From assembly GCA_014764025.1 (NCBI GenBank), contig JACXUD010000002.1:1-45497 (forward strand): a stretch of 45,497 nt of DNA. The letters run 5' to 3'. This stretch comes from Campylobacterota bacterium. GTDB lineage: Bacteria; Campylobacterota; Campylobacteria; Campylobacterales; Sulfurimonadaceae. The notes beneath the pieces are model-generated. The model was given only the letters and a program-made list of their open reading frames with translations. It made no database searches and was not told the DNA's origin. This document shows positions 2,201-45,389 of this stretch, in pieces (within the stretch, counting starts at the first letter, position 1; each line of letters opens with the position of its first letter). Made by a program: the position numbers and the translations under genes.

Positions 2201-2218
2201 AATATAATACAGTATATT
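2201..2218 (+). promoter_or_regulatory. Operator AATATA-N6-TATATT over a TATAAT box
   Basis: TATAAT at 2203-2208 is embedded in a perfect AATATA/TATATT palindrome and followed by the leader AAGAAAAGGAA before the ATG at 2235. The -35 (GATACA, 2180-2185) is weak. This is the first of eight such modules in the window. Confidence 0.65.
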
Positions 2219-2234
2219 AAGAAAAGGAAATAAA

Positions 2235-2354
2235 ATGAAAGATTTAACGATTGAAGAAATCATGGAAAAGCACAAAGGAATAATGACCGTAGAACAATTC
2301 GATGAGCTATTCGACCCAGTAACGGAGGGCGATGATTTAGGGGAGAGATTGTAG
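2235..2354 (+). CDS. Small acidic protein, 39 aa
   Basis: It starts at an ATG 6 nt after AAAAGGAA and ends TTGTAG; the stop overlaps the GTG start of the next gene (TAGTG), so the two are translationally coupled. The sequence (MKDLTIEEIMEKHKGIMTVE then QFDELFDPVTEGDDLGERL) is acidic and helical, without membrane segments. Family not recognised; a small adaptor, antitoxin-like or regulatory role is possible but not shown. Confidence 0.65.
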   Translation: MKDLTIEEIMEKHKGIMTVEQFDELFDPVTEGDDLGERL

Positions 2355-2701
2355 TGTCTCAATGGAGTTGGAAAGATGTGGAGAATATGCTAGATGAATA
2401 CAAGGATCGTAACCTCTCACAAGATGAACATATTTTTGCTTCAGAGATTTTCCTGAAAAGATTTTTTGAAAACCATATACCTTCTTTTGAAGGGCTTAGT
2501 GCTGATGAAGGGTGTGAAGAAATCGTTAATCAGTTAGGGCTTTACATTAAGGAAGATGAGAAGTTAAACGAAGGGATGACTTTACATATCGAAGAGCACA
2601 ATATTGAGGGGGATATCGTTTTTGTGACGTATCTTCTAGGGGCAGAAGAGGAACTTGAGGATTTTAAGGTAGAGAAAAAAGTAAGGGAGGCTATCGAATA
2701 A
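2354..2701 (+). CDS. Hypothetical acidic protein, 115 aa
   Basis: GTG start (VSQWSWKDVENMLDEY) overlapping the stop codon of the 39-aa gene, so synthesis probably depends on it. The protein is strongly acidic, soluble and mostly helical (SQDEHIFASEIFLKRFFE, then an acidic C-terminal half). No known motif recognised. A 24-bp perfect palindrome follows two bases after the stop codon, between this gene and the convergent gene at 2953. Confidence 0.7.
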   Translation: MSQWSWKDVENMLDEYKDRNLSQDEHIFASEIFLKRFFENHIPSFEGLSADEGCEEIVNQLGLYIKEDEKLNEGMTLHIEEHNIEGDIVFVTYLLGAEEELEDFKVEKKVREAIE

Positions 2702-2702
2702 T

Positions 2703-2726
2703 ATCTAACTCGACGTCGAGTTAGAT
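2703..2726. repeat. 3'-end palindrome, copy 1 (24 bp)
   Basis: CTAACTCGACGTCGAGTTAG with AT/AT flanks forms a perfect palindrome between the convergent genes ending at 2701 and 2726. It is one of four related elements (5791, 8274, 14137). There is no long T-run on either side; it may act as a bidirectional terminator or a protein-binding site. Confidence 0.8.
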
Positions 2727-2953
2727 TACTTTATGGTCTTTTTAAACTCCTCAAGGAGAACAGCATCTTCTTGAGAAATGACCACCATCCCCTTATCGGA
2801 TAAGGAAATATATTTCACTAGAGCATCATTTATATACCCCTCAACCAATCCACTTCTTATTATCCCTTCACTTACTTTTTTCTCAAGCGTATTCTCAAGA
2901 GTTTCCATTACGATCCGACCAAGTAGCTTCTTTAATTTCTTTTTGTTTTTCAT
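2726..2953 (-). CDS. Small basic protein, 75 aa
   Basis: Start ATG with a good AAGGAG ribosome-binding site about 6 nt upstream. The first 16 residues are lysine-rich (MKNKKKLKKLLGRIVME) and the rest is an amphipathic alpha/beta domain ending VVISQEDAVLLEEFKKTIK. It could be a nucleic-acid-binding or antitoxin-type protein, but no family is recognised. It converges on the acidic 115-aa gene across the palindrome. Confidence 0.65.
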   Translation of the reverse strand: MKNKKKLKKLLGRIVMETLENTLEKKVSEGIIRSGLVEGYINDALVKYISLSDKGMVVISQEDAVLLEEFKKTIK

Positions 2954-3149
2954 GGGCTACTCCTTTTTTAAAGTGTAGGGTAATGCTGAAGTGTCGTCAA
3001 TACCGGATAGATAACTATATGCAACTTTATAGAACATTACAAAATAAACATTTTTCCAGTGTGTGAATAGGAAACATATTTTAATCATATACACTTCTTG
3101 TATTTCAAAAACTCTTTGGGAAAACCTTAGTTCGTGCAGAAAAAATCAT

Positions 3150-3155
3150 TATAAT
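3150..3155 (+). promoter_or_regulatory. -10 box for the topoisomerase gene
   Basis: TATAAT at 3150-3155 lies 32 bp upstream of the ATG at 3188, in A-rich DNA without a good -35. The 234-bp gap upstream (2954-3187) otherwise holds only a weak AGTGT/ACACT inverted repeat. Confidence 0.5.
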
Positions 3156-3187
3156 CTACTCAAAACGGACTTGAGGACTTTTACAGA

Positions 3188-5794
3188 ATGAAGACTTTAA
3201 TCCTCACGGAAAAAAGGGATGCGGGTGCAGAGCTCGCCTCCACTCTTGGAGAATTTGGTACAGATCTTGACCGTATCAAGGCCAAGGGGAAAGCAGACGG
3301 GTTTATTGAGAGTGAAAACTTTATCGTATGTTGGGCTGCGGGGCATTTATTCGAGCAGTGTATGCCTGAAGCCATTCGAGCTGATTTTGCTCTCTTTAAA
3401 AAACTGGATACTCCGTTGGCTTACCGAATGGAAGAAATGCGTGACGGGATCAGGGATTTACCTTCCGGTGACAAAACAAAGAAGCGGCAGATCACAATAC
3501 TCCGAAACCTATTCAGACGCAACGATATTTCAAGGATCATAAGTGCGGTAGATGCTGATGCGGAAGGAGAAGGAATTGCTGCGGGGATGCTCTCTCTTGG
3601 AGGACACGGCAAAGGTGTTCCTATTCTCCGTTTTTGGAATACCGGATCTTTTAAATCCAAAACAGCCGTTCAAAAAGCCATGAACGAGCTTCAACCTTAT
3701 GATGCACCAAAATATAAGGCACTCTACCACTCATATCTAGCTAGATCCGTTTGTGATTACCTACTGGGAATGAAGCTAACGAAGGTGGCCTCTGAGCATT
3801 ATAATAAAATGTTCATCTTTGGACGAGTTAAGGCGGTGATCACTTCCCTGGTCGGAATGAGAGAGATAGAGATTGCCAATTTTAAGCCGGAGCCATTTTG
3901 GAGTATGTCGGCAAAGTTTGGGGATTTAGAGCTCTCGCATTTTTATTTTGTAGAAGAACAGCAGATAGACCAAAAGACCGGAGAGAACAAGACGACTTTC
4001 CTCAAAGAGAAAAACTATATTATCAGAGCAGACATAGATAAGGTTTTGGCTGATCTTGCAGAACATGTGAATAAAGTGGAGATCAAGAAGATCGAGGTGA
4101 GACAAACCTCATCAAAGACCCGCCCTCTTCCACTTTCGGGATCTGATTTTGCTTCTGAAATGATGGGAAAATTCAAAATCACCTATAACCAGTGTAATGA
4201 TATGCTTCAGTATCTAAGGGACAACGGCTTTACTACCTACCAGGGAACAAACGGAAGATACTTTTCTCCTGATGATGAAGCCGATGTTGTTACTGCACTC
4301 GGTACGGCGAACACTTATTTTCAGGTTGCGGGAAATTTTGACAAGAGCAGCTACATCTTTAATGGGAAAAAAGCGGCCAAACAAAACCACCCTCCTCTAC
4401 ACCTTACCGGAAGCGTTCCTTCGGAGCGAGATATTAATAAGTGGGCAAACGACAAACTCCCTCACATTAAAGAGGGTTATGAAACGATTGCGAAAAGAAT
4501 TCTTGTAGCCTTCTTGGAAGATGATCTCATCGAGGAACAGCATCTACTTGTTTCAACTCCTGGCGGGTACTTCTTTGAGCTTAGAGGAAGAAAAGCGATC
4601 AAGCAAGGATGGAGAAGCTTTATTGGAGAAGAAATCAAGGATACCACCTTTGATGTAAACCAGTTTAATGTCGGCAACACTATTACCTTGAGCAACATAG
4701 AAGTTTCCGAAGGGATGACAAAGAAGCCTCTACTCTATACCGAGAAGACTCTTCTTGATGTTCTCCTGAATGTTACCAAAGTGGTCGATGGCTATATCAA
4801 GGAAGCAAAGACACCAAATGAGATCAAGAAGTATAAAAAGATGAAGAAGCTCCTAAAAGAGGCCGGGGGCATCGGCACGGATAGGACGAGATCGGATATC
4901 ATTTCTTCACTATTCAAGAACGGGGTTTTCAGAAAGAACGGCAAAGGATACATTACGCTCACGGAAAGCGGTCAGGAGATATTCAATATCTACCCTAGAC
5001 TACTTAAAAGCGTTGAGTTTGCAGCTTCATGGGAAAATGTATTGGAGTCGATCCGACAAGGAAAGACTGATTACAAAGATTTTATCAAGTCAGTCGATGA
5101 TGTGCTGATGGATAAAATGATCCCTGAGATCATAAACGGTGTAGGAGGGAAGGTCCAGGCCGTAGGAGAAAGAGAGAAGGTTATAAGAAATAAACTTGCC
5201 GGAGCTATCTGTCCTTTATGCGGTAAGGGGGTCGATGAGTCAGACAAGCAGTACACTTGTGAGAATGTTTCTTTCGGGAAGAGCAAGGGGTGTGCCTTTA
5301 AGCTAAACAAAGACCTTGCCAAGACATTAGGAAGAAAGCTTGATGGATTGAATGACTTTAATGCCTTTGTGACCTCAACCGAAACCTCACCTATGAAAGA
5401 GAACGCCCATGCGATCTATTTTAATCCTTCTAACAAAAAATACTTCTTTGAGGTTATTTGGGAGAACGCTGCAAACACAGAGGGCTCTTCGGGTGGCAAT
5501 ACTGTATCCGCAGGTAATAGCAGTGCAATTTGCGAGACAGCGAAAACCTTCAAGAAGGGAAATGAGTATTTCTTTAAAAATTTACATGGCGGCGATATCA
5601 CTATGGATCAAGCCAAAAAACTGTTCGATGGAGAAGAGGTACAAGTTAGTAGGAAGAATAAAGAGGACAAGAAATATACCCTCTCAGTTAAATACAAAGG
5701 AGAGCCGATGCTTGAGACCGCCTTTGTGAATAATAGTATTATTGGAGGGAGCAAGAGAGGCAAAGGTAGAGGAAAAATCAACTTTAACTTCTAA
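3188..5794 (+). CDS. DNA topoisomerase type IA (topoisomerase III / TraE-like)
   Basis: 868 aa. It should pass one DNA strand through a transient break, resolving plasmid replication or transfer intermediates. The TOPRIM domain shows E8 (LILTEKR) and the acidic motif DADAEGEG at 122-129. ARSVCDYLLGMKLTKV (about 185-200) and FGRVKAVITSLVG match the family core. The nucleophile region reads FTTYQGTNGRYFS (348-360), placing the tyrosine at 351, but the usual Y-P-R-T-D is Y-Q-G-T-N, losing the conserved arginine. GGIGTDRTRSDII is the later conserved block. A four-cysteine zinc-binding element (CPLCG ... C ... GC) lies near residue 675, followed by topoisomerase C-terminal repeats. The stop codon lies inside a palindrome. 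Confidence 0.9.
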   Translation: MKTLILTEKRDAGAELASTLGEFGTDLDRIKAKGKADGFIESENFIVCWAAGHLFEQCMPEAIRADFALFKKLDTPLAYRMEEMRDGIRDLPSGDKTKKRQITILRNLFRRNDISRIISAVDADAEGEGIAAGMLSLGGHGKGVPILRFWNTGSFKSKTAVQKAMNELQPYDAPKYKALYHSYLARSVCDYLLGMKLTKVASEHYNKMFIFGRVKAVITSLVGMREIEIANFKPEPFWSMSAKFGDLELSHFYFVEEQQIDQKTGENKTTFLKEKNYIIRADIDKVLADLAEHVNKVEIKKIEVRQTSSKTRPLPLSGSDFASEMMGKFKITYNQCNDMLQYLRDNGFTTYQGTNGRYFSPDDEADVVTALGTANTYFQVAGNFDKSSYIFNGKKAAKQNHPPLHLTGSVPSERDINKWANDKLPHIKEGYETIAKRILVAFLEDDLIEEQHLLVSTPGGYFFELRGRKAIKQGWRSFIGEEIKDTTFDVNQFNVGNTITLSNIEVSEGMTKKPLLYTEKTLLDVLLNVTKVVDGYIKEAKTPNEIKKYKKMKKLLKEAGGIGTDRTRSDIISSLFKNGVFRKNGKGYITLTESGQEIFNIYPRLLKSVEFAASWENVLESIRQGKTDYKDFIKSVDDVLMDKMIPEIINGVGGKVQAVGEREKVIRNKLAGAICPLCGKGVDESDKQYTCENVSFGKSKGCAFKLNKDLAKTLGRKLDGLNDFNAFVTSTETSPMKENAHAIYFNPSNKKYFFEVIWENAANTEGSSGGNTVSAGNSSAICETAKTFKKGNEYFFKNLHGGDITMDQAKKLFDGEEVQVSRKNKEDKKYTLSVKYKGEPMLETAFVNNSIIGGSKRGKGRGKINFNF

Positions 5795-5810
5795 CTCGAT
5801 ATCGAGTTAG
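5791..5810. repeat. 3'-end palindrome, copy 2
   Basis: CTAACTCGATATCGAGTTAG is a perfect palindrome and contains the TAA stop codon of the topoisomerase (5792-5794). It is followed directly by a true intrinsic terminator, so at this copy termination does not need the palindrome. Confidence 0.85.
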
Positions 5811-5815
5811 ACCTC

Positions 5816-5846
5816 AAAGCCCTATTTTTCGGGCTTTATTTTTATT
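5816..5846 (+). terminator. Rho-independent terminator after the topoisomerase
   Basis: AAAGCCC (5816-5822), an 8-nt loop, GGGCTTT (5831-5837), then ATTTTTATT. A standard intrinsic terminator. Confidence 0.85.
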
Positions 5847-5853
5847 CTTAATC

Positions 5854-5883
5854 TTGATTTTGTATCATTGTTTTCACTAAACT
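5854..5883 (+). promoter_or_regulatory. Promoter of the HU gene
   Basis: TTGATT (5854-5859), 18-bp spacer, TAAACT (5878-5883). The TTGATTTTG core and the 18-bp spacing are shared with the promoters of the lipoprotein gene (8355) and the pilin-like gene (40869). Confidence 0.5.
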
Positions 5884-5918
5884 CAAACGTACAAAAAATT
5901 TACAAAAAAAGGATATTT

Positions 5919-6203
5919 ATGACAAAAGCAGAATTCGTAGAGCTTGTTCAGAAGAATGGTGAGTTTAAAAGCAAGGCAGCAGCAGAAAAAGCAGTAAAAG
6001 CGTTCATTGACTCTGTTACTGAAGCATTGGTTAAAAAAGAAACCGTTTCTCTAGTTGGTTTTGGAACATTCTCGACAGTAGAGGTAGCTGAAAAATCAGG
6101 TACAGTACCGGGCACTAACAAGACTTATAAAAAAGCTGCACATACAGCACCAAAATTCAAGTTTGGTAGCACGACAAAAGAAGCGGTTGCTCAGGCAAAA
6201 TAA
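5919..6203 (+). CDS. HU-family nucleoid protein
   Basis: 94 aa from the ATG at 5919 (MTKAEFVELVQKNG), 7 nt after AAAAAAGGAT; a longer in-frame start has no ribosome-binding site. The helical N-terminus and VSLVGFGTFSTVEVAEKSG are classic HU. The DNA-wrapping arm reads KSGTVPGTNKTYKKAAHTAP instead of the usual RxGRNPxTG form, though the proline and basic residues remain. It bends and coats DNA and on plasmids may act in replication, recombination or silencing. It sits between the topoisomerase and SSB genes. Confidence 0.9.
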   Translation: MTKAEFVELVQKNGEFKSKAAAEKAVKAFIDSVTEALVKKETVSLVGFGTFSTVEVAEKSGTVPGTNKTYKKAAHTAPKFKFGSTTKEAVAQAK

Positions 6204-6224
6204 GGAATTTCCTTTAAAATTTTA

Positions 6225-6893: not shown

Positions 6894-6894
6894 C

Positions 6895-11093: not shown

Positions 11094-11176
11094 CTTTTTT
11101 CCTCGCAAATTTATAAAATATATCAGATTGTATCATAAATTTTTACACGGTGTCAATAAAAAATATTTAAAAGTAA

Positions 11177-11215
11177 TTGACAATAAAAAATATTTAAGAT
11201 ATAATTAAATATATT
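11177..11215 (+). promoter_or_regulatory. Consensus promoter with GATATA-N6-TATATT operator
   Basis: TTGACA (11177-11182), 17-bp spacer, TATAAT (11200-11205). The palindrome at 11198-11215 overlaps the -10 and start site, and the leader AAGAAAAGGAAATATC follows. It drives the gene at 11232 and probably the helicase behind it. It is the clearest example of the window's shared promoter/operator module. Confidence 0.8.
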
Positions 11216-11231: not shown

Positions 11232-11741
11232 ATGTTATTCGCATTAATCAAGGATACGCAAATACCGAGCTTTTTGGAGGGTAAAGTAGGCCTTATCTCC
11301 CCTCAAGGCAATATGGTCACAGAATTAACACCCGGGGCCCTTACTCTGATCTCGACAGAGAACTCTATGAGCAAGAATACTATAAAGAAATTGGAAGGGA
11401 AACTCAATATCACCTTTTTTACCAAAAAAGGTATTCCGTTTTTAATATTTGACTTCAACGGAAGTACCATTTCTTCACCCGTAGTCAAGTTTTCACAGAA
11501 GCTTGAAAGCAATGCACTGTTTATACTGGGGATCGATACAGAGACAAAGATACTGAAAGTGCAGAGAATGATTGGGTTGCCAATGGCTATGATCCAAGAT
11601 ATCAATAGGGTGATTAATTCCGTACCGGAAGAAAAGCTTGTGGATAACATTTATGCGGTTTTTGATAGTGTATCGGATCGCCAGATGATCAAGAAGGGAA
11701 AAACCTACACAGTGGGAATGCCTGAAGAAAACTACAGATAG
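11232..11741 (+). CDS. Hypothetical protein, 169 aa, first gene of the helicase operon
   Basis: Begins MLFALIKDTQIPSFLEGKVG behind AAAAGGAA. It looks like a soluble alpha/beta protein (hydrophobic strands at FLIFDFNG and LFILGIDTET); no catalytic motif recognised. The next gene's ribosome-binding site overlaps its stop codon, so it is co-expressed with the RecD-like helicase and may work with it. It shares its leader and first codons in style with the gene at 23033, but the proteins are otherwise unlike. Confidence 0.7.
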   Translation: MLFALIKDTQIPSFLEGKVGLISPQGNMVTELTPGALTLISTENSMSKNTIKKLEGKLNITFFTKKGIPFLIFDFNGSTISSPVVKFSQKLESNALFILGIDTETKILKVQRMIGLPMAMIQDINRVINSVPEEKLVDNIYAVFDSVSDRQMIKKGKTYTVGMPEENYR

Positions 11742-11750
11742 GAGAAAGTG

Positions 11751-14135
11751 ATGAGTGCATTATTTGATATAAATGCCACTACAACCTATGTTGCGAAGAT
11801 AAAGACCATCAAGTATAGAAATGCTGAAGGATATATTATCGCCTCTACTTCAGGGAAATTAACAGTAAAGGGAACAGTTCACCATGACCCTGATGATCTC
11901 ATTGGGGTATCTATCTCTTTCCAAGGGAACAAAGATGTGAATAAGGAGTATGGGGATCATTTTGTTTTCACTAGCTATACGATCAAAGGAGGGTACGGTA
12001 TTTTCTTTCTGACGAAACTTTGCGGAGTACCCAAAAGGTCGGCCCAGGAAATTATTGATAAACTGGGCGATAAGGACGGCTCAAGACTTGAGAATGTGAT
12101 AGAGAATAATCCCAAGTCACTTCTTAATATCCGTGGAATTTCCGATAAGCGTCTTTCCCATATCATTGCAGCCTTTCATGCCAACAAACATTTACGTTCC
12201 GTAACCGAGTTTCTTTTTGATTTTGACGTATCGCCAAGCAAAGTAAAGAAGATACACGACTTCTATGTGGAAAGAAAAAAGAATCCGGTGGAAGAGCTCA
12301 GGAGAAATCCTTTTGATCTAATCCGAATCGGTGGGATAGGTTTCCGTTCAGCCGATGGCATAGCGATCAAGATGGGATTGCCATTCAATTCGCCTTTCCG
12401 TATTCAGAGTGGACTCGTTTTTGTAACCTCTGAGCATTGCGAGCAGGGTGGACACACCTATATCGATGTCGAAGAGCTTTACGAAAAGTCATCCGAAATA
12501 CTCAGTAGGAATAATAGTGTCATAAGCAGAGAAGAGCTTGAAGAGGCACTAATGGTTTCAGCCCTAGAAAAGAAAACCCTTGACTTTGTGGACAAAGAAC
12601 ACACCAAAGTATCCCTACCTTACCTGATCGCTTCAGAGAAATACATACACCGTACACTTTTGGATAATAGAGATATTTTCGGGAAGCCTATCCTAGTAGA
12701 TATCGGCAAGTATATTCAGGAGTGTGAAGAAGAAGGGAAAAAGCTTACCGGAAAAGAAGATTTTGAACTGGATCCGCAACAAAGAAAAGCTATCGAGATC
12801 GCCAATATGCTGCCAAATGTTTTTTATATTTCAGGAGTTGCCGGAAGCGGTAAAACAAGTACCAGTAAATACATCATGGAGCTTTTTCTAAAAATATACA
12901 ATAAGAGCGAAATCGTTGGAACAGCATTAAGTGGAGTTGCAGCTAACCGTATTCAAACAGCTACGGGGTTTGCGGGAAGAACAATACACTCCCTTCTTTC
13001 TTTCAAAGGAAGCACATGGGAATTCAATGAGAACAATAAGCTACCCTATAAAGTGATTATGCTTGATGAGGCGGGAATGGTTTCAAGCCAACTATTCAGC
13101 ACACTCCTGAAAGCAATAGACTTCACAAAAACTCATCTTTTCATTGTCGGAGATCATGCTCAACTAAAGAGCATCGGGAGTGGAAATGTATTCTTAAATA
13201 TTCTACAAGGAGAGCTTTGTAAAGGAGTGCAGCTTACTACGGTGCATAGAACAGATATGGACCAGGTAATCAATATATTTTCTACTGAATATATCAGACA
13301 AGGGAAAGTCCCCGAAGGATACAAAAGGGGAGACTATAAGGATTTCAAGTTTATAAGCAAGCAGATCCCGAACTACTGGCAGCTTAAAAACACTCTTTCA
13401 AAAAAAGAGCTCACAGAAATGAGAGAGCAGTTAAAGGTTGATATTACCGAGGAGATAAGACAAATTGCTTTGAGTCATAGAGAGGAAATAATGAAGATAT
13501 ACATTAGTGATGTCAAAGGGTATATCAATGGATTCCAGGTCATTTCTCCTATGCGTTCTAACCTGCTCGGTGTTGAAGAGCTCAATAAGACGCTACAAGA
13601 GGTATTTAACCCAATGCAATATAGTGGAATGCTAGAGGTGGGAGACAAGATTTTTAAACCAAGAGACAAGGTACTGCATCTTAAAAATTCAGATAGAAAA
13701 ACGTGCAGCATGGATATTTACAGAAAGCATATCAAAAGAGAAAAAGAGCTCTATGAGAGTTCAGAAGTAGAAGAGACAAAAGTATTTAATGGCATGATCG
13801 GTGTTATCCTCAAAGTAATGCTAAAAGAGGATCTGATCACTGTCTATTATCCAAACGAAGAGAAGGTGGCGTTCTATAAAAAGAAAGATTTTGCAGAAAA
13901 AAATATTGAGCACGGATTTTGCCAAACAACGCATAAGTCGCAAGGCTCGGAGTATAAGACGGTATGTTTTGTCTCCTCATCGAGCCATTGGTCCATGTTG
14001 AACTCCGAGCTTGTTTACACCGCTTGTACCAGGGCAAAAAAGATGCTTTATGTTGTGGGGGAGGATTATGCGTTTGAGCGTGGGTGCAAGAACAAAGAGG
14101 AGAACGAGAGAAAGACGATTCTTTCGCTTCTCTAA
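11751..14135 (+). CDS. RecD2-like DNA helicase (superfamily 1B)
   Basis: 794 aa. Start at the ATG at 11751, six bases after AGGAG; a GTG immediately before it is too close to that site. The N-terminal part has an OB-like region and helix-hairpin-helix repeats (SLLNIRGISDKR, LIRIGGIGFRSADG), as in RecD2. Helicase motifs follow: Walker A GVAGSGKTST (about 362-371), Walker B VIMLDEAGM (about 436), motif III VGDHAQLKS (about 466), TTHKSQGSEYKT (about 726) and the arginine motif YTACTRAKKMLYV (about 754). RecD2 proteins unwind DNA 5'-3' in repair; plasmid relatives may aid replication or processing of transferred strands. No relaxase domain is fused to it. Palindrome copy 4 follows by one base. 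Confidence 0.88.
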   Translation: MSALFDINATTTYVAKIKTIKYRNAEGYIIASTSGKLTVKGTVHHDPDDLIGVSISFQGNKDVNKEYGDHFVFTSYTIKGGYGIFFLTKLCGVPKRSAQEIIDKLGDKDGSRLENVIENNPKSLLNIRGISDKRLSHIIAAFHANKHLRSVTEFLFDFDVSPSKVKKIHDFYVERKKNPVEELRRNPFDLIRIGGIGFRSADGIAIKMGLPFNSPFRIQSGLVFVTSEHCEQGGHTYIDVEELYEKSSEILSRNNSVISREELEEALMVSALEKKTLDFVDKEHTKVSLPYLIASEKYIHRTLLDNRDIFGKPILVDIGKYIQECEEEGKKLTGKEDFELDPQQRKAIEIANMLPNVFYISGVAGSGKTSTSKYIMELFLKIYNKSEIVGTALSGVAANRIQTATGFAGRTIHSLLSFKGSTWEFNENNKLPYKVIMLDEAGMVSSQLFSTLLKAIDFTKTHLFIVGDHAQLKSIGSGNVFLNILQGELCKGVQLTTVHRTDMDQVINIFSTEYIRQGKVPEGYKRGDYKDFKFISKQIPNYWQLKNTLSKKELTEMREQLKVDITEEIRQIALSHREEIMKIYISDVKGYINGFQVISPMRSNLLGVEELNKTLQEVFNPMQYSGMLEVGDKIFKPRDKVLHLKNSDRKTCSMDIYRKHIKREKELYESSEVEETKVFNGMIGVILKVMLKEDLITVYYPNEEKVAFYKKKDFAEKNIEHGFCQTTHKSQGSEYKTVCFVSSSSHWSMLNSELVYTACTRAKKMLYVVGEDYAFERGCKNKEENERKTILSLL

Positions 14136-14631: not shown

Positions 14632-15003
14632 TTGACAACTCCCCTCTCTGATCCGAGTAAAGTGATGATCATAATGCTGACCAATAGCCCGCACATCGAT
14701 CCAACCATGCTAGAGATATTGAGGAGTGACCTGGTGAGAGAGAGTGGTGATCCTGGTACTAAGGTGGCATTTATCCATGAGGAGACTACACCGGATGGAG
14801 AACGCTACACATTTCTTCAGCCAAAAAACGGTTTCGTGAAAGAGTTGTACTTGTATGATCATAAGAGATTAGAGCAGTTCCGAGAAAAAAATCACTGCGA
14901 CACACTATGGCACAAATGCCAAAAGCCCACACTTGAGCAGATAGTCCACCAAGCAAAACTGATAAAGCTCTCTGAGCAGGGTATGGCTATTCAACCCTTG
15001 TGA
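14632..15003 (+). CDS. Hypothetical protein, 123 aa, TTG start
   Basis: The most plausible start is TTG at 14632 (LTTPLSDPSKVMIIMLTNSP), with AAAAGG upstream and a -10 (TATACT) about 25 bp before that. A TTG at 14587 overlaps the promoter. Residues 10-20 form a hydrophobic strand; the rest is soluble (HEETTPDGERYTFLQPKNGF). No family recognised. Its 3' end overlaps the convergent RusA-like gene by 17 bp. Confidence 0.55.
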   Translation: MTTPLSDPSKVMIIMLTNSPHIDPTMLEILRSDLVRESGDPGTKVAFIHEETTPDGERYTFLQPKNGFVKELYLYDHKRLEQFREKNHCDTLWHKCQKPTLEQIVHQAKLIKLSEQGMAIQPL

Positions 15004-15565
15004 GGTAGGCTACTACTTTGTAGGTATTATTGATCACCTCATCATCTTGAGGCTTATGCCTTTGAAGACACTTTCTGTTATCGTCCACGATTAAACCAAG
15101 TACACCGGATCCTTTTAGCTTCGGTACAGAAAAGGTATCCTGAAAAGCCTTGATAGAGTTATTGTCCGTATCTCTTGAGTTTGGATTATGGAAGTAGTAT
15201 TCCACTCTCGCTTTTTCCATTGGTACGATCTTTTTGTGAATCGCTCTGTTTTTCAGCAGCCAATCCTTTGCAGCCTTTTTGATAGCGTTCTTGTATCTGA
15301 TCGCTTCCGTTCTCGAAAAACTGTTGATGTTATTTGTAGAGTAGTGCCTTCCGGTAAGAGTGATCTTGTAGCCGTTCTCCAAAAATTCCACATCGTAGAT
15401 GTACGAGAAGGTCATAGATCCTTTTGTTTTGTTTCCCTTGTTTTGGGAGATACCCATCGCTTCTCTGAACTGTTCCGATGAAATACTATCGTTCTCCGAT
15501 AGATTGTACTTCTTCCTGATCTGTTTGATCGCACTAGGGGAAACCATAGACCCTAAAACACCCAT
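14987..15565 (-). CDS. RusA-like Holliday-junction resolvase
   Basis: 192 aa with an AAGGAG ribosome-binding site. The C-terminal 80 residues carry the RusA pattern: a strand ARVEYYFHNPN, then RDTDNNSIKAFQDTF (131-145, Asp132 and Asp134), then LGLIVDDNRKCLQ (157-168, Asp161 and Asp162). RusA cuts four-way DNA junctions with such aspartates and a nearby lysine (Lys139 fits). The first 50 residues are an extra, HTH-like extension (AIKQIRKKYNLSENDSISSE) not found in short RusA proteins. With topoisomerase, SSB, HU and RecD2 it completes a plasmid recombination/resolution kit. Assignment is by motif, hence moderate confidence. Confidence 0.7.
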   Translation of the reverse strand: MGVLGSMVSPSAIKQIRKKYNLSENDSISSEQFREAMGISQNKGNKTKGSMTFSYIYDVEFLENGYKITLTGRHYSTNNINSFSRTEAIRYKNAIKKAAKDWLLKNRAIHKKIVPMEKARVEYYFHNPNSRDTDNNSIKAFQDTFSVPKLKGSGVLGLIVDDNRKCLQRHKPQDDEVINNTYKVVAYLTRVE

Positions 15566-15694: not shown

Positions 15695-15733
15695 TTGCAT
15701 TTAATTCATATCTATGATATAATGAGATATATC
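15695..15733 (+). promoter_or_regulatory. Promoter with GATATA-N6-TATATC operator upstream of the methylase-like gene
   Basis: TTGCAT (15695-15700), N17, TATAAT (15718-15723). The palindrome 15716-15733 overlaps the -10 and start site as at 11177. Transcription would begin near 15730, inside or after the first possible ATG of the next reading frame, which complicates that gene's start. The AAGAAAAGGAA leader is missing here. Confidence 0.65.
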
Positions 15734-15928
15734 ATCACTAATGACATCGAGGAGGTATCCAAAGATTTAGATATCGACAAAATCATCTACAAGGACTCTA
15801 TGGACCTATGGAGCTATTGGAGTAGAGAGACAAGCTATCGCTCACTGGCAAAGAATGGAGAAGAGCCTAAAGAGCTTGAAATAGCCATAGAAGTTGCGAA
15901 AATGCGTTTTTTGCCGCTTAAATTATAA
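15722..15928 (+). CDS. Small protein, 68 aa (or 42 aa from an internal start)
   Basis: The frame reads MRYIITNDIEEVSKDLDIDK from 15722, but that ATG lies within the -10/operator and has no ribosome-binding site. An internal ATG at 15800 (MDLWSYWSRETSYRSLAK) has AAGGA four bases upstream and fits the predicted transcript start, giving 42 aa. Both are listed because the longer frame looks protein-like throughout. Acidic and soluble, family unknown. It precedes the methylase-like gene by 10 bp and is probably co-transcribed with it. Confidence 0.5.
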   Translation: MRYIITNDIEEVSKDLDIDKIIYKDSMDLWSYWSRETSYRSLAKNGEEPKELEIAIEVAKMRFLPLKL

Positions 15929-16666: not shown

Positions 16667-16828
16667 ATGTCCTTCTTTATTCTCTATGAGGGAAAGGTGT
16701 GTACTTTTGGAAGTGCAGGTCAAGATTTTACGCCTGAATGGTTAGAAGAGAATATTTTAATGGATGCAGACGGTATCTTTTGCAAAAAATGTGTCAATGT
16801 TGCACGAAAACTTCTTAATAATTCTTAG
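16667..16828 (+). CDS. Small cysteine-containing protein, 53 aa
   Basis: The sequence starts MSFFILYEGKVCTFGSAGQD and ends with FCKKCVNVARKLLNNS. A C-x2-C pair near the C-terminus and another Cys at residue 12 hint at a small metal-binding or redox protein. No strong ribosome-binding site is visible. It converges on the EAL gene with a 4-bp overlap of stop codons. Family unknown. Confidence 0.5.
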   Translation: MSFFILYEGKVCTFGSAGQDFTPEWLEENILMDADGIFCKKCVNVARKLLNNS

Positions 16829-17613
16829 ATCGCCTGACCTATGGGTGAGAGTGAACGCTCTTCATTCCACAATGCTAAGTCCTTTAGCAAATACCCCTGA
16901 ATAAAATTTATTCCCGCAAAGTTGGCACATTGCTTATGGATCAGCGTCTCTACGCCTTCAAGGATTATCTCCTTGCCGTACCTTTTGCACATTTCCGTAA
17001 ACCCTTTTAGGAATTCAAGCTGCTCATCATCTTCAGATGCCCGGTGCGTCAAGGAGACATCGATCTTGATAATATCCGATCTCATAAAAAGTACCGAAGA
17101 GAACAGAGAGTCGATTGAGAAGATGTCATCCAGTGCGATCCTGAAGCGTCCACTCAGGGAAGGGTTTTCTTTGAGCTTGTCGATAAATACCTTAGACCTT
17201 TCTATTTCCTTATGGGATTTTGACTCTTTGATCTCCAATACGATATTGTCATGCTTTCCTATGAAGCTTTCCCAATGTGCGATATGTTCGTCCTTTGTAA
17301 TGTGGCAAGGGTTGAGGTTTAGGAAAAGAGGCGTGTTGTGAGGACGGTGTTTTACCTGATGCGATTTTGTAAGCATTTCAAGCCGATGGTACTCATCGCT
17401 ATCTTTCTCAAATAACGAGAAAAAGAACTCTGGAGAGAACAGTTTTCCTTCATATTCAAATCTCGCTAGGGCTTCGTTCCCTATAAGAATAGAGGAGCCG
17501 AGATCGACAATAGGCTGATATTCGGTTCGTATAGAAACATTCTTGATCACCTCATCAAGAGGCAGAAGCTCAAGCTTCTTTATGTCCTGGCGTGTTGCTG
17601 TACCTAGCTTCAT
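16825..17613 (-). CDS. EAL-domain cyclic-di-GMP phosphodiesterase
   Basis: 262 aa, start at the ATG at 17613 with AAGGA six bases upstream; a TTG seven codons earlier is not needed. It is a stand-alone EAL domain: EAL at 47-49 (GNEALAR), N99 (FLNLNP), E127 (VLEIKES), D162-D163 (ALDD), K183 (IIKID), E219-E222 (EGVE) and QGYLL at 239-243. All the metal and general-base positions of active EAL enzymes appear kept, though DDFG reads DDIF. It would hydrolyse c-di-GMP to pGpG, favouring the motile state or altering surface and pilus behaviour of the host. No sensor or GGDEF domain is attached. Confidence 0.88.
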   Translation of the reverse strand: MKLGTATRQDIKKLELLPLDEVIKNVSIRTEYQPIVDLGSSILIGNEALARFEYEGKLFSPEFFFSLFEKDSDEYHRLEMLTKSHQVKHRPHNTPLFLNLNPCHITKDEHIAHWESFIGKHDNIVLEIKESKSHKEIERSKVFIDKLKENPSLSGRFRIALDDIFSIDSLFSSVLFMRSDIIKIDVSLTHRASEDDEQLEFLKGFTEMCKRYGKEIILEGVETLIHKQCANFAGINFIQGYLLKDLALWNEERSLSPIGQAI

Positions 17614-17763
17614 TATTTTCCTTGTGTTTCCCAACTAAAACGTCAATTTTATCAAATAAAAAGTTCTCTCAAAAGATTTTCTTAAACTCTTTCGGTTTTT
17701 CCCATTTTTTAGCCTAAATAGTGCAAAATAATTCAAAATAAATTTATCTTTTATATTATTTAT

Positions 17764-19101: not shown

Positions 19102-19324
19102 AATTGCGGAGCGTTTCTGTTTCTCGGAAGATGTAGTGACTCACTATAAAGATATGTGGCCTACCGAGAAATAGAAACCGAAGATGTGCTACGGGGCCTT
19201 CAAGTATCTCGAAAGTATCTCGAAAGTATCAGGCAACCGAATCTACAGATGAGGTTAGCTTATGCTATGGGAATAGATACGCCACCCGAACAAAAATAAA
19301 ATCCTAAACTATTTTGGATTTTTT
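19099..19324 (+). ncRNA. Possible structured RNA with its own promoter and terminator
   Basis: The 325 bp between the nuclease and thyX (19067-19391) hold no clear gene. A TATAAT box (19099-19104) is followed by GTTTC-tg-TTTCTCGG (19112-19126), which pairs with CCGAGAAA-ta-GAAAC (19164-19178). Inside lies TAGTG-act-CACTA. Then come repeats of AAAGTATCTCG (about 19203-19230) and finally a true terminator, AAAATCC-N11-GGATTTT plus T's (19298-19324). That is the outline of a small RNA of about 200 nt. A competing reading is a decayed gene: after a TAA at 19147, one frame stays open to 19299 and reads like protein (EDVLRGLQVSRKYLESIRQP). Confidence 0.4.
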
Positions 19325-19391
19325 AGAAAACTGCACTACCTCACTTTTTGATATCCGCTATCATACTAACAATACACTAAAGGAAAACACG

Positions 19392-20219
19392 ATGCTTTCT
19401 TACAAAAAACCAAAAGTCACCCTACTTCAGGAGTCCGGGTTAGGAGTTGCGGAGATCGCAGCGAGAACTTGCTATGACAGTTTTGAGAATTCAGAGAACG
19501 ACTGTATCAGGAACTATAAAGAGGATTTTGATAGGGATGCGATCAATTCCATCGAGGACTCAGAGCTTCTTGCTAATCTTGCATGGGTACATCATCATCA
19601 TTCTATCTTGGAACACGCAACACTGAGCTTTTTGGTTGAGGGAATAAGCAGGGGAGTGCTTCAGGAACACGCAAGGCATCGCATTCAGGCAATTTCGTGC
19701 CGAAGCACAAGATACACAATGTCATCGGTATTAAATGCTTTTGCGGCCTCTATGAAATGTACCAATGAGTTAGTGTTTTTTATCAATAAGATCATGGAGC
19801 TTGATATGTTTGTCGTTGATGAAGAGGAATATCTCTTTCTTGAGATTGAGTGTCTATTCAATAAGCTCAAGTATCATAGGCACAAGTACGAAGAGGATAG
19901 TGATTTTCTCAAAGAGATCATAGCAGCTTCTTCACTTGGTTATATGGACGAGTTGGGCGATAACCCGGAAGCTCTTTACCAGGCACTACAAAACGGGAAG
20001 AGGAAAAGAAACGTCGGAGACAAATTTAAACATATCGTGACCGATAACTGGAAGGTAGATATGGTGGTCACTTTCAATATCCGAAGTTTAAAAAATTACT
20101 TTGATCTTCGTGATTCAGGAGCAGCATGGTTTCAGATCCAGTGGCTCGCTCAAGCCATAAAAGAAGCAACACCTATGAAGTATCTAAAGCTCATCGATAA
20201 AAAGTACAAGGATATTTAG
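19392..20219 (+). CDS. thyX: Flavin-dependent thymidylate synthase (ThyX)
   Basis: 275 aa from the ATG at 19392, seven bases after AGGA; a longer start lacks a ribosome-binding site. The family signature RHR-x7-S is present at 95-105 and reads on to RY at 107-108 (RHRIQAISCRSTRY). It departs from the usual RHRxxSxNExSxRY in the middle (S, N and E become A, S and C). LEHATLSFLVEGISRGVLQE before it and RSLKNYFDLR near the C-terminus also fit. ThyX makes dTMP from dUMP using FAD, NADPH and methylene-tetrahydrofolate. Carriage on a plasmid may raise thymidylate supply or match a host lacking thyA, as phages often do. A terminator follows. Confidence 0.85.
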   Translation: MLSYKKPKVTLLQESGLGVAEIAARTCYDSFENSENDCIRNYKEDFDRDAINSIEDSELLANLAWVHHHHSILEHATLSFLVEGISRGVLQEHARHRIQAISCRSTRYTMSSVLNAFAASMKCTNELVFFINKIMELDMFVVDEEEYLFLEIECLFNKLKYHRHKYEEDSDFLKEIIAASSLGYMDELGDNPEALYQALQNGKRKRNVGDKFKHIVTDNWKVDMVVTFNIRSLKNYFDLRDSGAAWFQIQWLAQAIKEATPMKYLKLIDKKYKDI

Positions 20220-21834: not shown

Positions 21835-22299
21835 ATGATTACACTGACAAAGTTCTTGACAAACTTGCGGGGAAATTCGCACCGAAAGTTCAAATCTTGG
21901 CGGAGGGCAAATAAAATGGCAGGGCATTTACCACTACTAAACGAAAACGGCGGCTGTAAGTTCTTTCACGATCTTGGCGACCTCACATACGGAGAGCTGT
22001 CTGCTGCGATCAATGAGATCAAGGAAGTATTTGGCGGCATGGCGAGAGCGATCACATTTATGTCTCCTTGGGACGAAACAAAAAGAGACGGCAGAAAGCA
22101 TATTGGGAAGCTCAGAAAGCTCCCGCACGTTTATGCGGCATTTACAGAGGAGGAAGAGGGTAGAAAAGAGGGCTCACTTGAGGCGTACATCTATTCCCCG
22201 AAACTTCTCAAGGATAAAAATTTTTTAGGAACATTCGAGGTGCATTATGTTGCTGAAATGAAGAGCGAGAAGATCGTTCAAATCTACTATGTGGCATAG
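21835..22299 (+). CDS. Hypothetical basic protein, 154 aa
   Basis: Starts MITLTKFLTNLRGNSHRKFK behind AAAAGGAAAG. The N-terminal 30 residues are very basic; the rest is a soluble alpha/beta domain (ITFMSPWDETKRDGRKHIGK, then SLEAYIYSPKLL and a final strand KIVQIYYVA). No family recognised. First gene of a run with the genes at 22312 and 22745, all with good ribosome-binding sites and short gaps. Confidence 0.65.
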   Translation: MITLTKFLTNLRGNSHRKFKSWRRANKMAGHLPLLNENGGCKFFHDLGDLTYGELSAAINEIKEVFGGMARAITFMSPWDETKRDGRKHIGKLRKLPHVYAAFTEEEEGRKEGSLEAYIYSPKLLKDKNFLGTFEVHYVAEMKSEKIVQIYYVA

Positions 22300-22311: not shown

Positions 22312-22728
22312 ATGGCAAGACTATCAGTAACGTCAGTTTATTTCCCGGAAAGAGGGCAGGGTGCAGTTGAACCAACGGATCTGCTTTTTGAGTGTAAAGA
22401 GAACTACAGAAATGATTTTGTTTACCGCAAACTTATTCCCGATCAAAAAGCAAAGTATCACCATGAGAAAGGTACTTCCTTTTGTGTGAAGCCTACGGGC
22501 AAGTGGTGGCACGAAGATGATTTTGCAACAAAATGGATAAACCCGCAGAAAACAAGGCTTTGGATCGTAAAACACTACGACGGTATCATTAGAGAGCTTG
22601 AGGCACTATATATACCAGGAGAGGGATGGAAAGAGGGCAGTAGCCTATCGGCATTTCTCAAAGAGGCACAAGAGCGTATGACCTCATCCGTTGAGGTGAT
22701 CGATACCGAGACCAGTCAGATTGCATAA
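22312..22728 (+). CDS. Hypothetical protein, 138 aa
   Basis: AGGAGG lies 7 bases before the ATG. It begins MARLSVTSVYFPERGQGAVE and contains several aromatic-rich strands (FVYRKLIPDQKAKYHHEKG, GKWWHEDDFATKWI). Probably a compact soluble domain; family unknown. It lies 12 bp after the previous gene, so it is in the same operon. Confidence 0.65.
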   Translation: MARLSVTSVYFPERGQGAVEPTDLLFECKENYRNDFVYRKLIPDQKAKYHHEKGTSFCVKPTGKWWHEDDFATKWINPQKTRLWIVKHYDGIIRELEALYIPGEGWKEGSSLSAFLKEAQERMTSSVEVIDTETSQIA

Positions 22729-23032: not shown

Positions 23033-23266
23033 ATGTTGTTAGCAATCATTACTCACCATTACACACCTACTAAAAAAATCGAGGAATTTAACCCGCAGTT
23101 GGAAGATTTGGAATGTGTCGTTGATACTATCATGCAGAACACGATCCTTGTCAAAGGCAAGGACGAAGCAGAACTTGACGAAAACATTAAGGTGGTGAGT
23201 GACTTTATCGAACAAAATATGAATGACGGCTACACACAAATAAACGTCAGAAAACATACACTGTAG
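23033..23266 (+). CDS. Hypothetical acidic protein, 77 aa
   Basis: Starts MLLAIITHHYTPTKKIEEFN. A short alpha/beta protein, acidic in its middle (KGKDEAELDENIKVVSDFIE), with no known motif. It sits behind one of the strongest copies of the shared promoter module and is followed 13 bp later by a small zinc-ribbon gene. Confidence 0.65.
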   Translation: MLLAIITHHYTPTKKIEEFNPQLEDLECVVDTIMQNTILVKGKDEAELDENIKVVSDFIEQNMNDGYTQINVRKHTL

Positions 23267-23279: not shown

Positions 23280-23423
23280 ATGGCAAAGAAAGTTTTATGG
23301 TGTCCGAGAAATTGCGGGATCATCCACATCGAAGAACCTACAGAGGGGAAGTGTGAATGCGGATCGAGCGATATCCAAGATACGATAGGTATTTTGCGTC
23401 ACAGATTCGGAAAGCTCGTATGA
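23280..23423 (+). CDS. Zinc-ribbon miniprotein, 47 aa
   Basis: ATG at 23280 with GGGGAGG seven bases upstream. CPRNCG (8-13) and CECG (29-32) give a C-x3-C ... C-x-C arrangement suited to binding one zinc. The rest is short and basic (ILRHRFGKLV). Its TGA overlaps a following ATG (ATGA), which opens only a 12-codon frame. It resembles in style the Cys-rich proteins at 16667 and 17799. Confidence 0.6.
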   Translation: MAKKVLWCPRNCGIIHIEEPTEGKCECGSSDIQDTIGILRHRFGKLV

Positions 23424-41366: not shown

Positions 41367-41387
41367 TCCGAACTATTAAATGGAATA

Positions 41388-42524: not shown

Positions 42525-42532
42525 AAACTAAA

Positions 42533-43147
42533 ATGGATAGAAAAGAAAAATCACTTTATCTGCTTTTTACGGAGTCCTTAGTGGGCGTTCATGCCATAAG
42601 AGGTACTTCGATAGAAAAGTATGAGAACTATCCACTTACCTTCCCAGTGTCAGCAGAAGAGACGAATGGGAACTATCAATACAAGACTGCACTACTCAAG
42701 AATAAAACTTTTAATGAGGTTTTAAAGCGTTACAGAGAGACGAAGCCATACTATAAGGATGTCACGATCCTGGTGGGGTTTGATCTTGATAGAATGGGAG
42801 AGCTTATGTCAGGTGCATTAAGGGCATCATTGGAAGCTTCAGGGGTAGAGGGGAAAGATGTATTCAGAACACCATTGACCGAAGATGGCTATATTGTAGT
42901 GAAGAGCTTCGCTAAACATTCTTTTTACCTAAAAGTTCTCTATTGGCAAGAGCAATTAATGTCTATATTACGCAAAGCCGGGATCAAGAAAAATGTTGGA
43001 TTCGCAAAAGCTTTTTCCCTCAAATATGCCCTTAAAAATGCAGGGCAAATCTTTGGTATTAGTAATGCGTCGAGAATCAATAAACAAGGAACTTCAACCG
43101 CAACAGTGGTCACAAAGTTCTTTCAAAAAGAAAAAGAGGCACTATGA
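42533..43147 (+). CDS. Stand-alone TOPRIM protein resembling a cut-down type IA topoisomerase
   Basis: 204 aa. LYLLFTESLVGVHAIRG (8-24) matches the topoisomerase start (LxIxES, catalytic Glu14). VTILVGFDLDRMGELMSGAL (77-96) is the DxDxxGE motif of the TOPRIM domain, comparable to DADREGE in topoisomerases. Near the end, NKQGTSTATVVTKFF (183-197) resembles the GTxATRAxII block of the same family. The long middle of a topoisomerase, including the Tyr domain, is absent. It may be a metal-dependent nuclease or nucleotidyl enzyme, or a regulatory partner. It has no clear ribosome-binding site and ends in an overlap with the next gene. Confidence 0.6.
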   Translation: MDRKEKSLYLLFTESLVGVHAIRGTSIEKYENYPLTFPVSAEETNGNYQYKTALLKNKTFNEVLKRYRETKPYYKDVTILVGFDLDRMGELMSGALRASLEASGVEGKDVFRTPLTEDGYIVVKSFAKHSFYLKVLYWQEQLMSILRKAGIKKNVGFAKAFSLKYALKNAGQIFGISNASRINKQGTSTATVVTKFFQKEKEAL

Positions 43148-43812
43148 GCAACTCTAATGACACCACGATACTGAGAGAAAACCTATTTACATTTATGTTT
43201 GCACCATATTTCGGAATGGTTAAACCCATAAAGGGCTACCAGGTTGAGATCGACAAAAACAAGAAGCGTAAATTGGTATCGATCTATTCTGAGGAGAAAT
43301 TCTACCCTCTCTTCCCGGTGGACAATCCTTTAAAGCATACAAATAAGTATCTCTTTGTACTGCAAGCCCTTTTCCTTCCTATTGTCTTCTGTCTTACTAC
43401 GATCTTCTTGGGGTATAGAATGACCTTTCATTTCAATGAAGTGGCCCTATGGATAGGACAAGGTTTATTCGTGGTTATAGCAGCAGACATGATAGTCGTA
43501 CTTTCAAAATTTCATAAATACAAGGTTGGATTGAGCGACATAATTAAGCACGACAAATTAAAAATGGTTTTGCTAGTGTTGCTATTTTTGGCCGGAGCAG
43601 TTATGACACAAGTGGCATACATAGGATTTATAGAGCTAACCTCTTATTTTATGATGATCGTGGGTTATGGATCTTTTATAGAATACATTAAAAAGCAAAT
43701 GTTTGTTTTGGCTTCAGAGAATATATCTTATTGGGAATACCCATTGATCGTAGATGCAGCAACGGGAAGAACGGAAAGTTACTATGTTGCAGTACCGAGT
43801 ATAGAAAACTAA
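43144..43812 (+). CDS. Polytopic membrane protein, 222 aa
   Basis: A soluble N-terminus of about 65 residues precedes four hydrophobic segments (about 69-91, 102-122, 139-158 and 161-180). The final 40 residues are soluble (YWEYPLIVDAATGRTESYYV). The ATG overlaps the previous stop (ATGA). No family recognised; by context an inner-membrane component of the transfer-like apparatus. Confidence 0.6.
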   Translation: MSNSNDTTILRENLFTFMFAPYFGMVKPIKGYQVEIDKNKKRKLVSIYSEEKFYPLFPVDNPLKHTNKYLFVLQALFLPIVFCLTTIFLGYRMTFHFNEVALWIGQGLFVVIAADMIVVLSKFHKYKVGLSDIIKHDKLKMVLLVLLFLAGAVMTQVAYIGFIELTSYFMMIVGYGSFIEYIKKQMFVLASENISYWEYPLIVDAATGRTESYYVAVPSIEN

Positions 43813-43828
43813 AAAAAATGGAGAAAAG

Positions 43829-44191
43829 ATGAGAAAGATAGTTATAGCGACAGTATTAATGTTATTCGCAAATATGCTCTATGGTAGAGACGGTGTAAGA
43901 GTGTCGGTGTATGAAGTTCCATACGGTGAGGTAGAGAACGTCGATCCTGACAATATGGGACGTATTTACAGTTCTGTATCGGGAGCCAAGCCAACTAAAG
44001 TTTACAAGAGAAAGAACGCAAGAGGGTACGAGCTTAGAAAAGATAACGTAGTTGTTATTATGCCCACAAGGGGAGCTAATCAGCGAGACTTCGAAGCACT
44101 ATTAGATATTGTATCTCAATATGCCAAGAAGCTCAAAGGACCTAATAGCGTAGGAATATCAAGAACTATAACAAGTCTAAAGAGAATGTAG
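43829..44191 (+). CDS. Small exported protein, 120 aa
   Basis: Signal peptide MRKIVIATVLMLFANMLYGR, then a soluble basic domain (RVSVYEVPYGEVENVDPDNM ... VYKRKNARGYELRKDNVVVI). GGAG lies seven bases before the ATG. Periplasmic by prediction. No motif recognised; it sits between two operon genes with gaps of about 15 bp. Confidence 0.65.
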   Translation: MRKIVIATVLMLFANMLYGRDGVRVSVYEVPYGEVENVDPDNMGRIYSSVSGAKPTKVYKRKNARGYELRKDNVVVIMPTRGANQRDFEALLDIVSQYAKKLKGPNSVGISRTITSLKRM

Positions 44192-44205
44192 GCAAGGAGA
44201 GGATC

Positions 44206-44817
44206 ATGTTGCACCATTCACCATCTAAAATAGAAGAAGCAGAATGGAGAAAAGGCTTATCAGCTAGACTTAAAGATAAAGAAGTCCTGGCAGCATTTTA
44301 CGACGAAGCTTCGGATGAGATCGCAGAAGAAAGAAAAGCCAAATATGTTTCTTACCATGTGCGAAAGATGGTTGATGATGGATACAAAGGAGTTTATACC
44401 GGAGAGGAAATTATTTCCGCAGTAAAGGACAGAAAATCAAAAGTTTTTGACGATACGGTGGATATTATAGTTTCCAAAATGCTTACGAGTGTGTTTAGGA
44501 AGCTTGGCGAGGATAATGAGAATAAAGCATTGCAATTTGATGACTTTCTTTTTCTTGCTCTTTCCAGGAATGATGCAAAAGTGAGAGACGCAGCATTTAA
44601 GTATATGCTAAATAGTCCTGAAGCAGAACAGCCAACAAGGGTCGGGTTTATTGGTAAGAGTTTTTCAAGTAGCCTCAATGAGATATCCATAAGTGTAGAG
44701 GCAAGCGGGTTAGATATGATCTCTGAATTATTTTTTACCACCTTTAGAAATCCTTCAGAAGCGAGGGAGAGTGTGGCTATTCCTTCGCCTGAAAATATAA
44801 TAAAAATAAGTATCTAG
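44206..44817 (+). CDS. Hypothetical soluble protein, 203 aa
   Basis: AAGGAG precedes the ATG. Mostly helical (MLHHSPSKIEEAEWRKGLSA, IISAVKDRKSKVFDDTVDII). No signal peptide or membrane helix, no motif recognised. Followed ten bases later by a GTG-start gene with a strong ribosome-binding site. Confidence 0.6.
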   Translation: MLHHSPSKIEEAEWRKGLSARLKDKEVLAAFYDEASDEIAEERKAKYVSYHVRKMVDDGYKGVYTGEEIISAVKDRKSKVFDDTVDIIVSKMLTSVFRKLGEDNENKALQFDDFLFLALSRNDAKVRDAAFKYMLNSPEAEQPTRVGFIGKSFSSSLNEISISVEASGLDMISELFFTTFRNPSEARESVAIPSPENIIKISI

Positions 44818-44827
44818 GAGGTAGCGA

Positions 44828-45340
44828 GTGGAAATCGGTAACGATCTGTACCCAGTCACACGGATACTTGCACCAAAGTTCTATATCAATGTAGATAAGC
44901 ATAACGCATTAGGGAATATAATTCTTATGGTTGTCGATGCTTTCAAGACAAAAGAAGAGGGGAGACGATCTTTAGGGGAAGAAAACTCCATAGTGGCCGA
45001 AAGAGGGGAGTCAGACATAAGCCTGAATGTGTTCAATGATGGTATGTTTGTTAAGGTGATCACCCCTACCGAAATGATTAAAGGGAAGGTGCTTGTGGCA
45101 ATGAAGCCTCTCTTGAGCAATATTTGGGAGCTAGAAAAGGAGAGGCAGACAGAGATCGTAAGCCAGGTTAAAAGAGGAATGCTTTCGGCTTTTGAATTCA
45201 ATGGAGAGTTTCCTATGTCTAACATCGTAGAAATGGATATTATGCTCTCAAGATATGCAAAAGAGGAGAACAACAAATCGCTCTTTGTGCCAATCTCTTC
45301 AGATGTTTTGATAAAAAACACCACAATTAAAAGAAAATAA
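44828..45340 (+). CDS. Hypothetical soluble protein, 170 aa, GTG start
   Basis: GTG at 44828 follows AGGAGGTAGCGA. Begins VEIGNDLYPVTRILAPKFYI; alpha/beta with a charged helix near residue 105 (WELEKERQTEIVSQVKRGML). No family recognised. Last gene of the rightward operon; a new promoter follows immediately, and no terminator is evident. Confidence 0.6.
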   Translation: MEIGNDLYPVTRILAPKFYINVDKHNALGNIILMVVDAFKTKEEGRRSLGEENSIVAERGESDISLNVFNDGMFVKVITPTEMIKGKVLVAMKPLLSNIWELEKERQTEIVSQVKRGMLSAFEFNGEFPMSNIVEMDIMLSRYAKEENNKSLFVPISSDVLIKNTTIKRK

Positions 45341-45350
45341 TTAAAAATAA

Positions 45351-45389
45351 TTGACAACGTAGTATATTTATGATATACTTAGTTATATT
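45351..45389 (+). promoter_or_regulatory. Promoter with GATATA-N6-TATATT operator for the final lipoprotein
   Basis: TTGACA (45351-45356), N17, TATACT (45374-45379); palindrome at 45372-45389. The spacing is identical to that at 11177. The ribosome-binding leader is AAGGGGAAATAGG. Confidence 0.75.

Follow-up and report, generated by a model that had tools for sequence, protein, structure and literature searches.

Does an 18-bp palindrome that recurs over the −10 boxes of a Campylobacterota contig mark the operators of a single plasmid repressor? The window analysed here, 45,497 bases long, is an entire contig (C71), one of 374 in a 2.2 Mb assembly, and had been predicted to carry eight copies of GATATA-N6-TATATC spread over a plasmid. 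All eight are found at the predicted coordinates: four are exact (15716, 17764, 21799 and 22999), two have one mismatch (11198 and 45372) and two have two mismatches (2201 and 6328). A further six are found on another contig of this assembly, the 79.6-kb C265. We consider it likely that one repressor, encoded by the plasmid, uses the palindrome (better written RATATA-N6-TATATY) as its operator at no fewer than 15 promoters of C71 and C265.

Palindrome sites on two contigs

The sites form a plasmid-wide set, as proposed in the original prediction; the coordinates given there stop at the contig edge, however, and the set continues on C265. A ninth window site, overlooked earlier, lies at 11117–11134 on the minus strand, divergent from 11198. 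It has a −35 TTGACA (11156–11151), an 18-bp spacer, TACAAT, a right arm TATATT and a start codon 23 nt downstream, and is probably a real member of the operator set. The −35 hexamers described at 11177, 15695, 21778, 22978 and 45351 do stand 17 bp from their −10 boxes, and the common leader AAGAAAAGG(G)AA does recur in five copies, at 2201, 11198, 17764, 21799 and 22999. The same leader accompanies one C265 site and stands upstream of no other of the 135 open reading frames (ORFs) on the two contigs. All 15 sites fall in the 8–12% of the DNA that is non-coding, with the start codon mostly 16–18 nt downstream.

At up to two mismatches, the window holds 15 palindrome matches against 3.1 expected, a count reached by none of 100 shuffles; seven of these are additional to the eight reported, six being not promoter-like and the seventh being site 11117. 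A 39-column weight matrix, built from the eight reported window sites and the six on C265, recovered just its 14 source sites over the 125 kb of C71 and C265, at 28.7–52.3 bits. Site 11117 came next, at 13.1 bits, if the reverse strands of sites are left aside; in five order-2 Markov copies the matrix scored nothing at 9 bits or above. Genome-wide tests were made as pattern searches. The motif might have been equally common in the rest of the host genome, which would have told against a plasmid regulon, but TTATGATATAATNNNNTATATY at up to one mismatch matched 13 times, eight on C71 and five on C265, with no match on the other 372 contigs (~2.07 Mb). Allowing two mismatches added the remaining two sites, plus one ordinary promoter on C123 and, on contig C9, a self-complementary match that counts once per strand. 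In a comparison of 399 genomes from the order, this genome is the outlier with its 13 sites; the runner-up has five, distributed over five contigs.

Because palindrome sites are common to both, C71 and C265 appear to belong together, and they are probably one large, undescribed conjugative plasmid, presumably a single molecule. Their gene sets are complementary, with Rep3 on C71 and ParA, a coupling protein and a secretin on C265. The Rep3 initiator matches Campylobacterota plasmids only (best 49.5% identity, Sulfurospirillum diekertiae), and the SSB core is 73% identical to an SSB from Sulfurovum mangrovi; by these matches the host very probably belongs to the Campylobacterota.

The promoters overlap the palindrome itself. 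Most sites contain the extended −10 box TGATATAAT, of which the left arm GATATA supplies the G and the first bases, and about half have the sigma-70 feature of a TTGACA or TTG-box 17–18 bp from the −10. An extended −10 requires G at palindrome position 1, the base present in 13 of 14 sites. Owing to this overlap, the left arm alone proves no operator, and independent evidence for one comes from the right arm only. The predicted palindrome is present, with a left arm that is part promoter, but the end base of the right arm varies (C in 5 of 14, T in 9 of 14), for which reason RATATA-N6-TATATY is the better form. In bits of information per base, the left arm scores 1.45 and the right arm 1.34, against 0.76 for the leader and 0.32 for the four central bases. 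Of the 915 dyads that the alignment allows, the one of positions 1–18 with a gap of 6 ranks first. Sites without the AAGAAAAGG leader (15716, 45372 and C265:20046) still keep the right arm, which rules out a purely conserved mRNA leader; Rfam gave no match. MerR-type activation is ruled out as well, since the dyad is located downstream of the spacer, whose length is a normal 17 bp.

Repression, stress response or promoter strength

From these features we infer that a repressor binds at the sites. With the dyad lying over the −10 box and start point, a bound dimer would span about −12 to +3 and keep RNA polymerase out. The promoters so blocked would be strong-looking ones of the extended −10 sigma-70 type, several with a good −35 (TTGACA or TTGCAA, 17–18 bp away). 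Scattered operons would be held low, including those for ssb, recT, a nuclease, the RecD2-like helicase, Mrr-type and NucA-type nucleases, a methyltransferase fragment and proteins of unknown function, and entry into a repressor-free recipient cell would set off a burst from them. That the targets are quiet in a settled host and briefly on after entry is plausible, purely by analogy with RP4 and R388. The targets named in the original prediction (ssb, the helicase, a methylase-like gene and a zinc-ribbon/nuclease pair) hold by Pfam matches, the N6-methylase as a fragment and the zinc ribbon by sequence only.

Such a repressor could be real and yet govern an SOS-like or prophage-like response to stress or induction rather than early transfer. 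Recombination and nuclease genes (recT, nuclease, ssb, helicase and nucleases) would suit this function, and the phage-like Malaciobacter mytili plasmid pAMYT has nuclease-recT-...-ssb in one stretch. We nevertheless judge it unlikely: the plasmid contigs bear coupling-protein, secretin and VirB4/HerA-like genes, a conjugative Campylobacter plasmid likewise groups ssb with bet and a Cas4-like nuclease, and no LexA-type (S24 peptidase) gene was present among the ~60 of 135 ORFs scanned with Pfam.

A decidedly unlikely account dispenses with the repressor and treats the sites as uniform strong sigma-70 promoters, their −10, start and leader conserved for strength, escape or sigma-dependent pausing, in the manner of lytic-phage early promoters. 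TATATY has the look of a −10, and a genome from another family of the order (G434) offers a yardstick. Its contigs C199, C307, C63 and C1 carry at least 16 near-identical promoters TTTTAAGC...TTATGGTATAATANGGTATATT at a fixed start distance (TATGGTATAATANGGTATATT plus a purine-rich leader, with the ATG usually 15–21 nt on), in which TATATT is as far from the −10 as in the plasmid sites. By inspection these contigs look like a T4-like phage, with tail-sheath-like and topoisomerase-like ORFs; we accordingly rejected G434 as a second regulon and kept it as a control. The plasmid sites resemble such early promoters in their near-identical extended −10 boxes, short purine-rich leaders and fixed start distance. 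Conservation in the phage, however, is even (1.02 in both centre and right arm, 0.94 in the leader) and its 1–18 dyad, ranked 14, is not favoured, as expected of T4-type early promoters working without a repressor, whereas the plasmid sites consist of two half-sites around a free centre with that dyad ranked first. Nor is the right arm a generic promoter feature, because four other TATGATATAAT promoters of the same genome (one on C71 at 15599, three on other contigs) have nothing like TATATY there. Finally, that the sites are recently duplicated copies of one promoter cassette without common regulation is highly improbable: at least one duplication looks likely, because 21799 and 22999 share ~25 identical bases upstream of the palindrome, but at the other sites the upstream sequence, the centre and often the leader vary, yet both arms are fixed.

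A candidate repressor

For the proposed repressor of these operators, the best candidate, advanced tentatively, is a 114-aa winged-helix-like protein encoded at C265:20097–20441. Its gene has its own copy of the site upstream (C265:20046), the weakest of the copies, which, if this is the repressor, would allow it to repress its own promoter as in a KorA regulon, and among the site-bearing operons it alone encodes a winged-helix-like protein, as judged by inspection, which picks out a helix IKFLVWLVEKN, a recognition-helix-like TVSNTMRFLCELGYAEKV and a wing-like ESGKGNKNERYSLV. The fuller proposal, which we hold as doubtful, is that this orphan protein would silence at least 15 dispersed promoters and, when the plasmid enters a new cell, release a programme of recombination, nuclease and establishment genes, a KorA-like circuit that would have evolved independently.

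Several observations weigh against a plasmid repressor acting on these operators. The candidate has no match in Pfam, PHROGs, NCBIfam or PDB and no credible relatives in the 399 genomes or PLSDB; two weak matches were ruled out as unrelated proteins. No KORA domain (PF16509) exceeds the cut-off in the whole genome, the best reaching 12.9 bits on another contig, and an HTH_3 protein (PF01381), as a Cro/CI-type system would have on its replicon, is absent from C71 and C265, with matches on other contigs only. Given the TATATT of the phage promoters, some of the right arm could belong to the promoter. The searches turned up no related plasmid bearing the motif, hence no phylogenetic footprint: the full motif occurred in none of 228 genomes of the family, the 399 genomes of the order held no clustered set, queries with the RecD2-like helicase, the 169-aa ORF, a 1218-aa ORF and the candidate repressor returned no related plasmid, and Campylobacterota plasmids with Rep and ssb relatives had no site among those scanned. 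A one-site match in a metagenome-assembled Bacilli genome, from a whole-genome collection, and ten single matches in viral contigs were taken as chance. Some other protein may be the repressor, since the Pfam scan took in only about half of the 135 ORFs.

Table 1. Palindrome sites (proposed operators), their proposed targets and neighbouring features on C71 (the window) and C265.
Feature	Contig	Position	Strand	Details
Rep3 initiator	C71	726–1877	−	best match 49.5% identical
Six iteron-like copies of TCCTCATTRTGAGTAA	C71	1864–2165		adjoining Rep3 initiator; site 2201 alongside
Operator/−10 AATATAATACAGTATATT	C71	2201–2218	+	upstream of 39-aa ORF 2235–2354 and overlapping 115-aa ORF 2354–2701
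Operator/−10 GATATGCTTAATTATATT	C71	6328–6345	+	ssb upstream region
Single-strand DNA-binding protein (ssb)	C71	6363–6893	+	PF00436, 1.6e-27
341-aa ORF, probable target of site 11117	C71	10083–11108	−	TTG 11108; ATG 11093 likelier start
Operator/−10 GATACAATCTGATATATT (probable)	C71	11117–11134	−	upstream of 341-aa ORF
Operator/−10 GATATAATTAAATATATT	C71	11198–11215	+	−35 TTGACA 11177–11182; ahead of 169-aa ORF and RecD2-like helicase
169-aa ORF	C71	11232–11741	+	weak match to PHROG 12389 (unknown function)
RecD2-like helicase	C71	11748–14135	+	PF13604 3.7e-31, PF14490 1.4e-21
Internal control TTATGATATAAT, promoter without right arm	C71	15581–15602	−	upstream of 14987–15565
Operator/−10 GATATAATGAGATATATC	C71	15716–15733	+	−35 TTGCAT 15695–15700; no AAGAAAAGG leader
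Short N6-methylase-like ORF	C71	15939–16622	+	PF02384 3.5e-12
Operator/−10 GATATAACGAGGTATATC	C71	17764–17781	+	ahead of zinc-ribbon ORF and NucA-type endonuclease
Zinc-ribbon-like ORF	C71	17799–18107	+	sequence reading; no family match above cut-off
NucA-type DNA/RNA non-specific endonuclease	C71	18104–19066	+	PF01223 2.6e-33
Operator/−10 GATATAATATAGTATATC	C71	21799–21816	+	−35 TTGCAA 21778–21783; ahead of ORFs 21835–22299 and 22312–22728
Two ORFs without assigned function, 154 and 138 aa	C71	21835–22728	+	
Operator/−10 GATATAATGTATTATATC	C71	22999–23016	+	−35 TTGCAA 22978–22983; ahead of 77-aa ORF 23033–23266 and 47-aa zinc-ribbon-like ORF 23280–23423
Operator/−10 GATATACTTAGTTATATT	C71	45372–45389	+	−35 TTGACA 45351–45356; ahead of lipoprotein-like ORF from 45415, truncated by contig end
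Site	C265	9842	−	296-aa ORF, then Mrr-type nuclease (PF04471 4e-27)
Site	C265	11498	−	463-aa ORF; Malaciobacter relative annotated PD-(D/E)XK nuclease
Site	C265	11587	+	short leader ORFs
Site	C265	20046	+	114-aa winged-helix-like ORF
Site	C265	27620	−	RecT (PF03837 6e-37)
Site	C265	32027	−	108-aa ORF without assigned function

Site 15716 is atypical, with the N6-methyltransferase-like ORF ~204 nt downstream. A 68-aa ORF (15722–15928) has its first ATG inside this palindrome, and a GAGGAGG stretch resembling a ribosome site lies at ~15748 with no start codon after it. Window positions 2065–2080 repeat part of site 2201. The C265 site at 11587 would drive a short transcript (~11600–11850) that includes a predicted hairpin close to its ribosome site, a 28-aa ORF (MKKKYSTPKLHCYGKRPQNPKPIIIKRTA) and a terminator-like repeat; this ORF has the YxxPxLxxxG pattern of lasso-peptide leaders. 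The plasmid also encodes a ThyX-type thymidylate synthase (window 19314–20219; PF02511, 4e-28) and an EAL-domain protein (window 16825–17634), and the conjugative Campylobacterota plasmids pCIG1485E and pHRV44 have EAL genes too. On C265, a parB-like gene behind parA seems broken into three ORFs (13112–13906), and a second ParB_N protein is encoded at 71367–72329.

Comparison with known plasmid regulators

Global plasmid repressors that allow a post-transfer burst of expression are known from a handful of proteobacterial plasmids (RP4 and R388). KorA (TrfB) of RP4/RK2 (IncP) recognises an inverted repeat located at the −10 box of the promoters it controls (PMC9723621), and klcA, ssb and other RP4 genes are zygotically induced (PMC7314908). 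In R388 (IncW), ArdK represses Pssb and others, placing strong promoters under negative feedback; ssb goes up after conjugation and the repressed genes overshoot (PMC3937220).

Like the KorA system, the present set places inverted repeats over the −10 boxes of several promoters scattered around the plasmid, and negative regulation with a post-transfer burst, in which ssb and maintenance genes take part (PMC9723621, PMC7314908), would be shared by analogy. Unlike RP4, with its KORA-domain repressor, the genome has no PF16509 protein over the cut-off. The operator also differs in sequence and has a 6-bp spacer, whereas that of RP4 is gapless (PMC9723621); the KorA inverted repeat of pWW0 has a 6-bp spacer (PMC9723621). 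Seven sites are given for KorA (PMC7314908) compared with 15 here. With ArdK/StbA the proposed system would share the control of ssb and several unknown or anti-restriction operons by one repressor (PMC3937220), but the sites of ArdK are direct repeats next to the −35 (PMC9723621), not an inverted repeat over the −10. The ssb-nuclease-bet/recT blocks of the Campylobacterota plasmids pCIG1485E and pAMYT have similar gene functions; the genes are contiguous there and scattered here, and those blocks have no matching sites.

The operator may serve as a marker that defines the early genes of the plasmid. Many of these have no known function and are leads for establishment and anti-defence functions. 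We regard the system as ordinary in kind and new in parts: the operator set would work like those of KorA and ArdK, with no claim of membership. An unrelated conjugative plasmid, probably of Campylobacterota, appears to reach the same design although its operator is different and it lacks a KorA-family protein.

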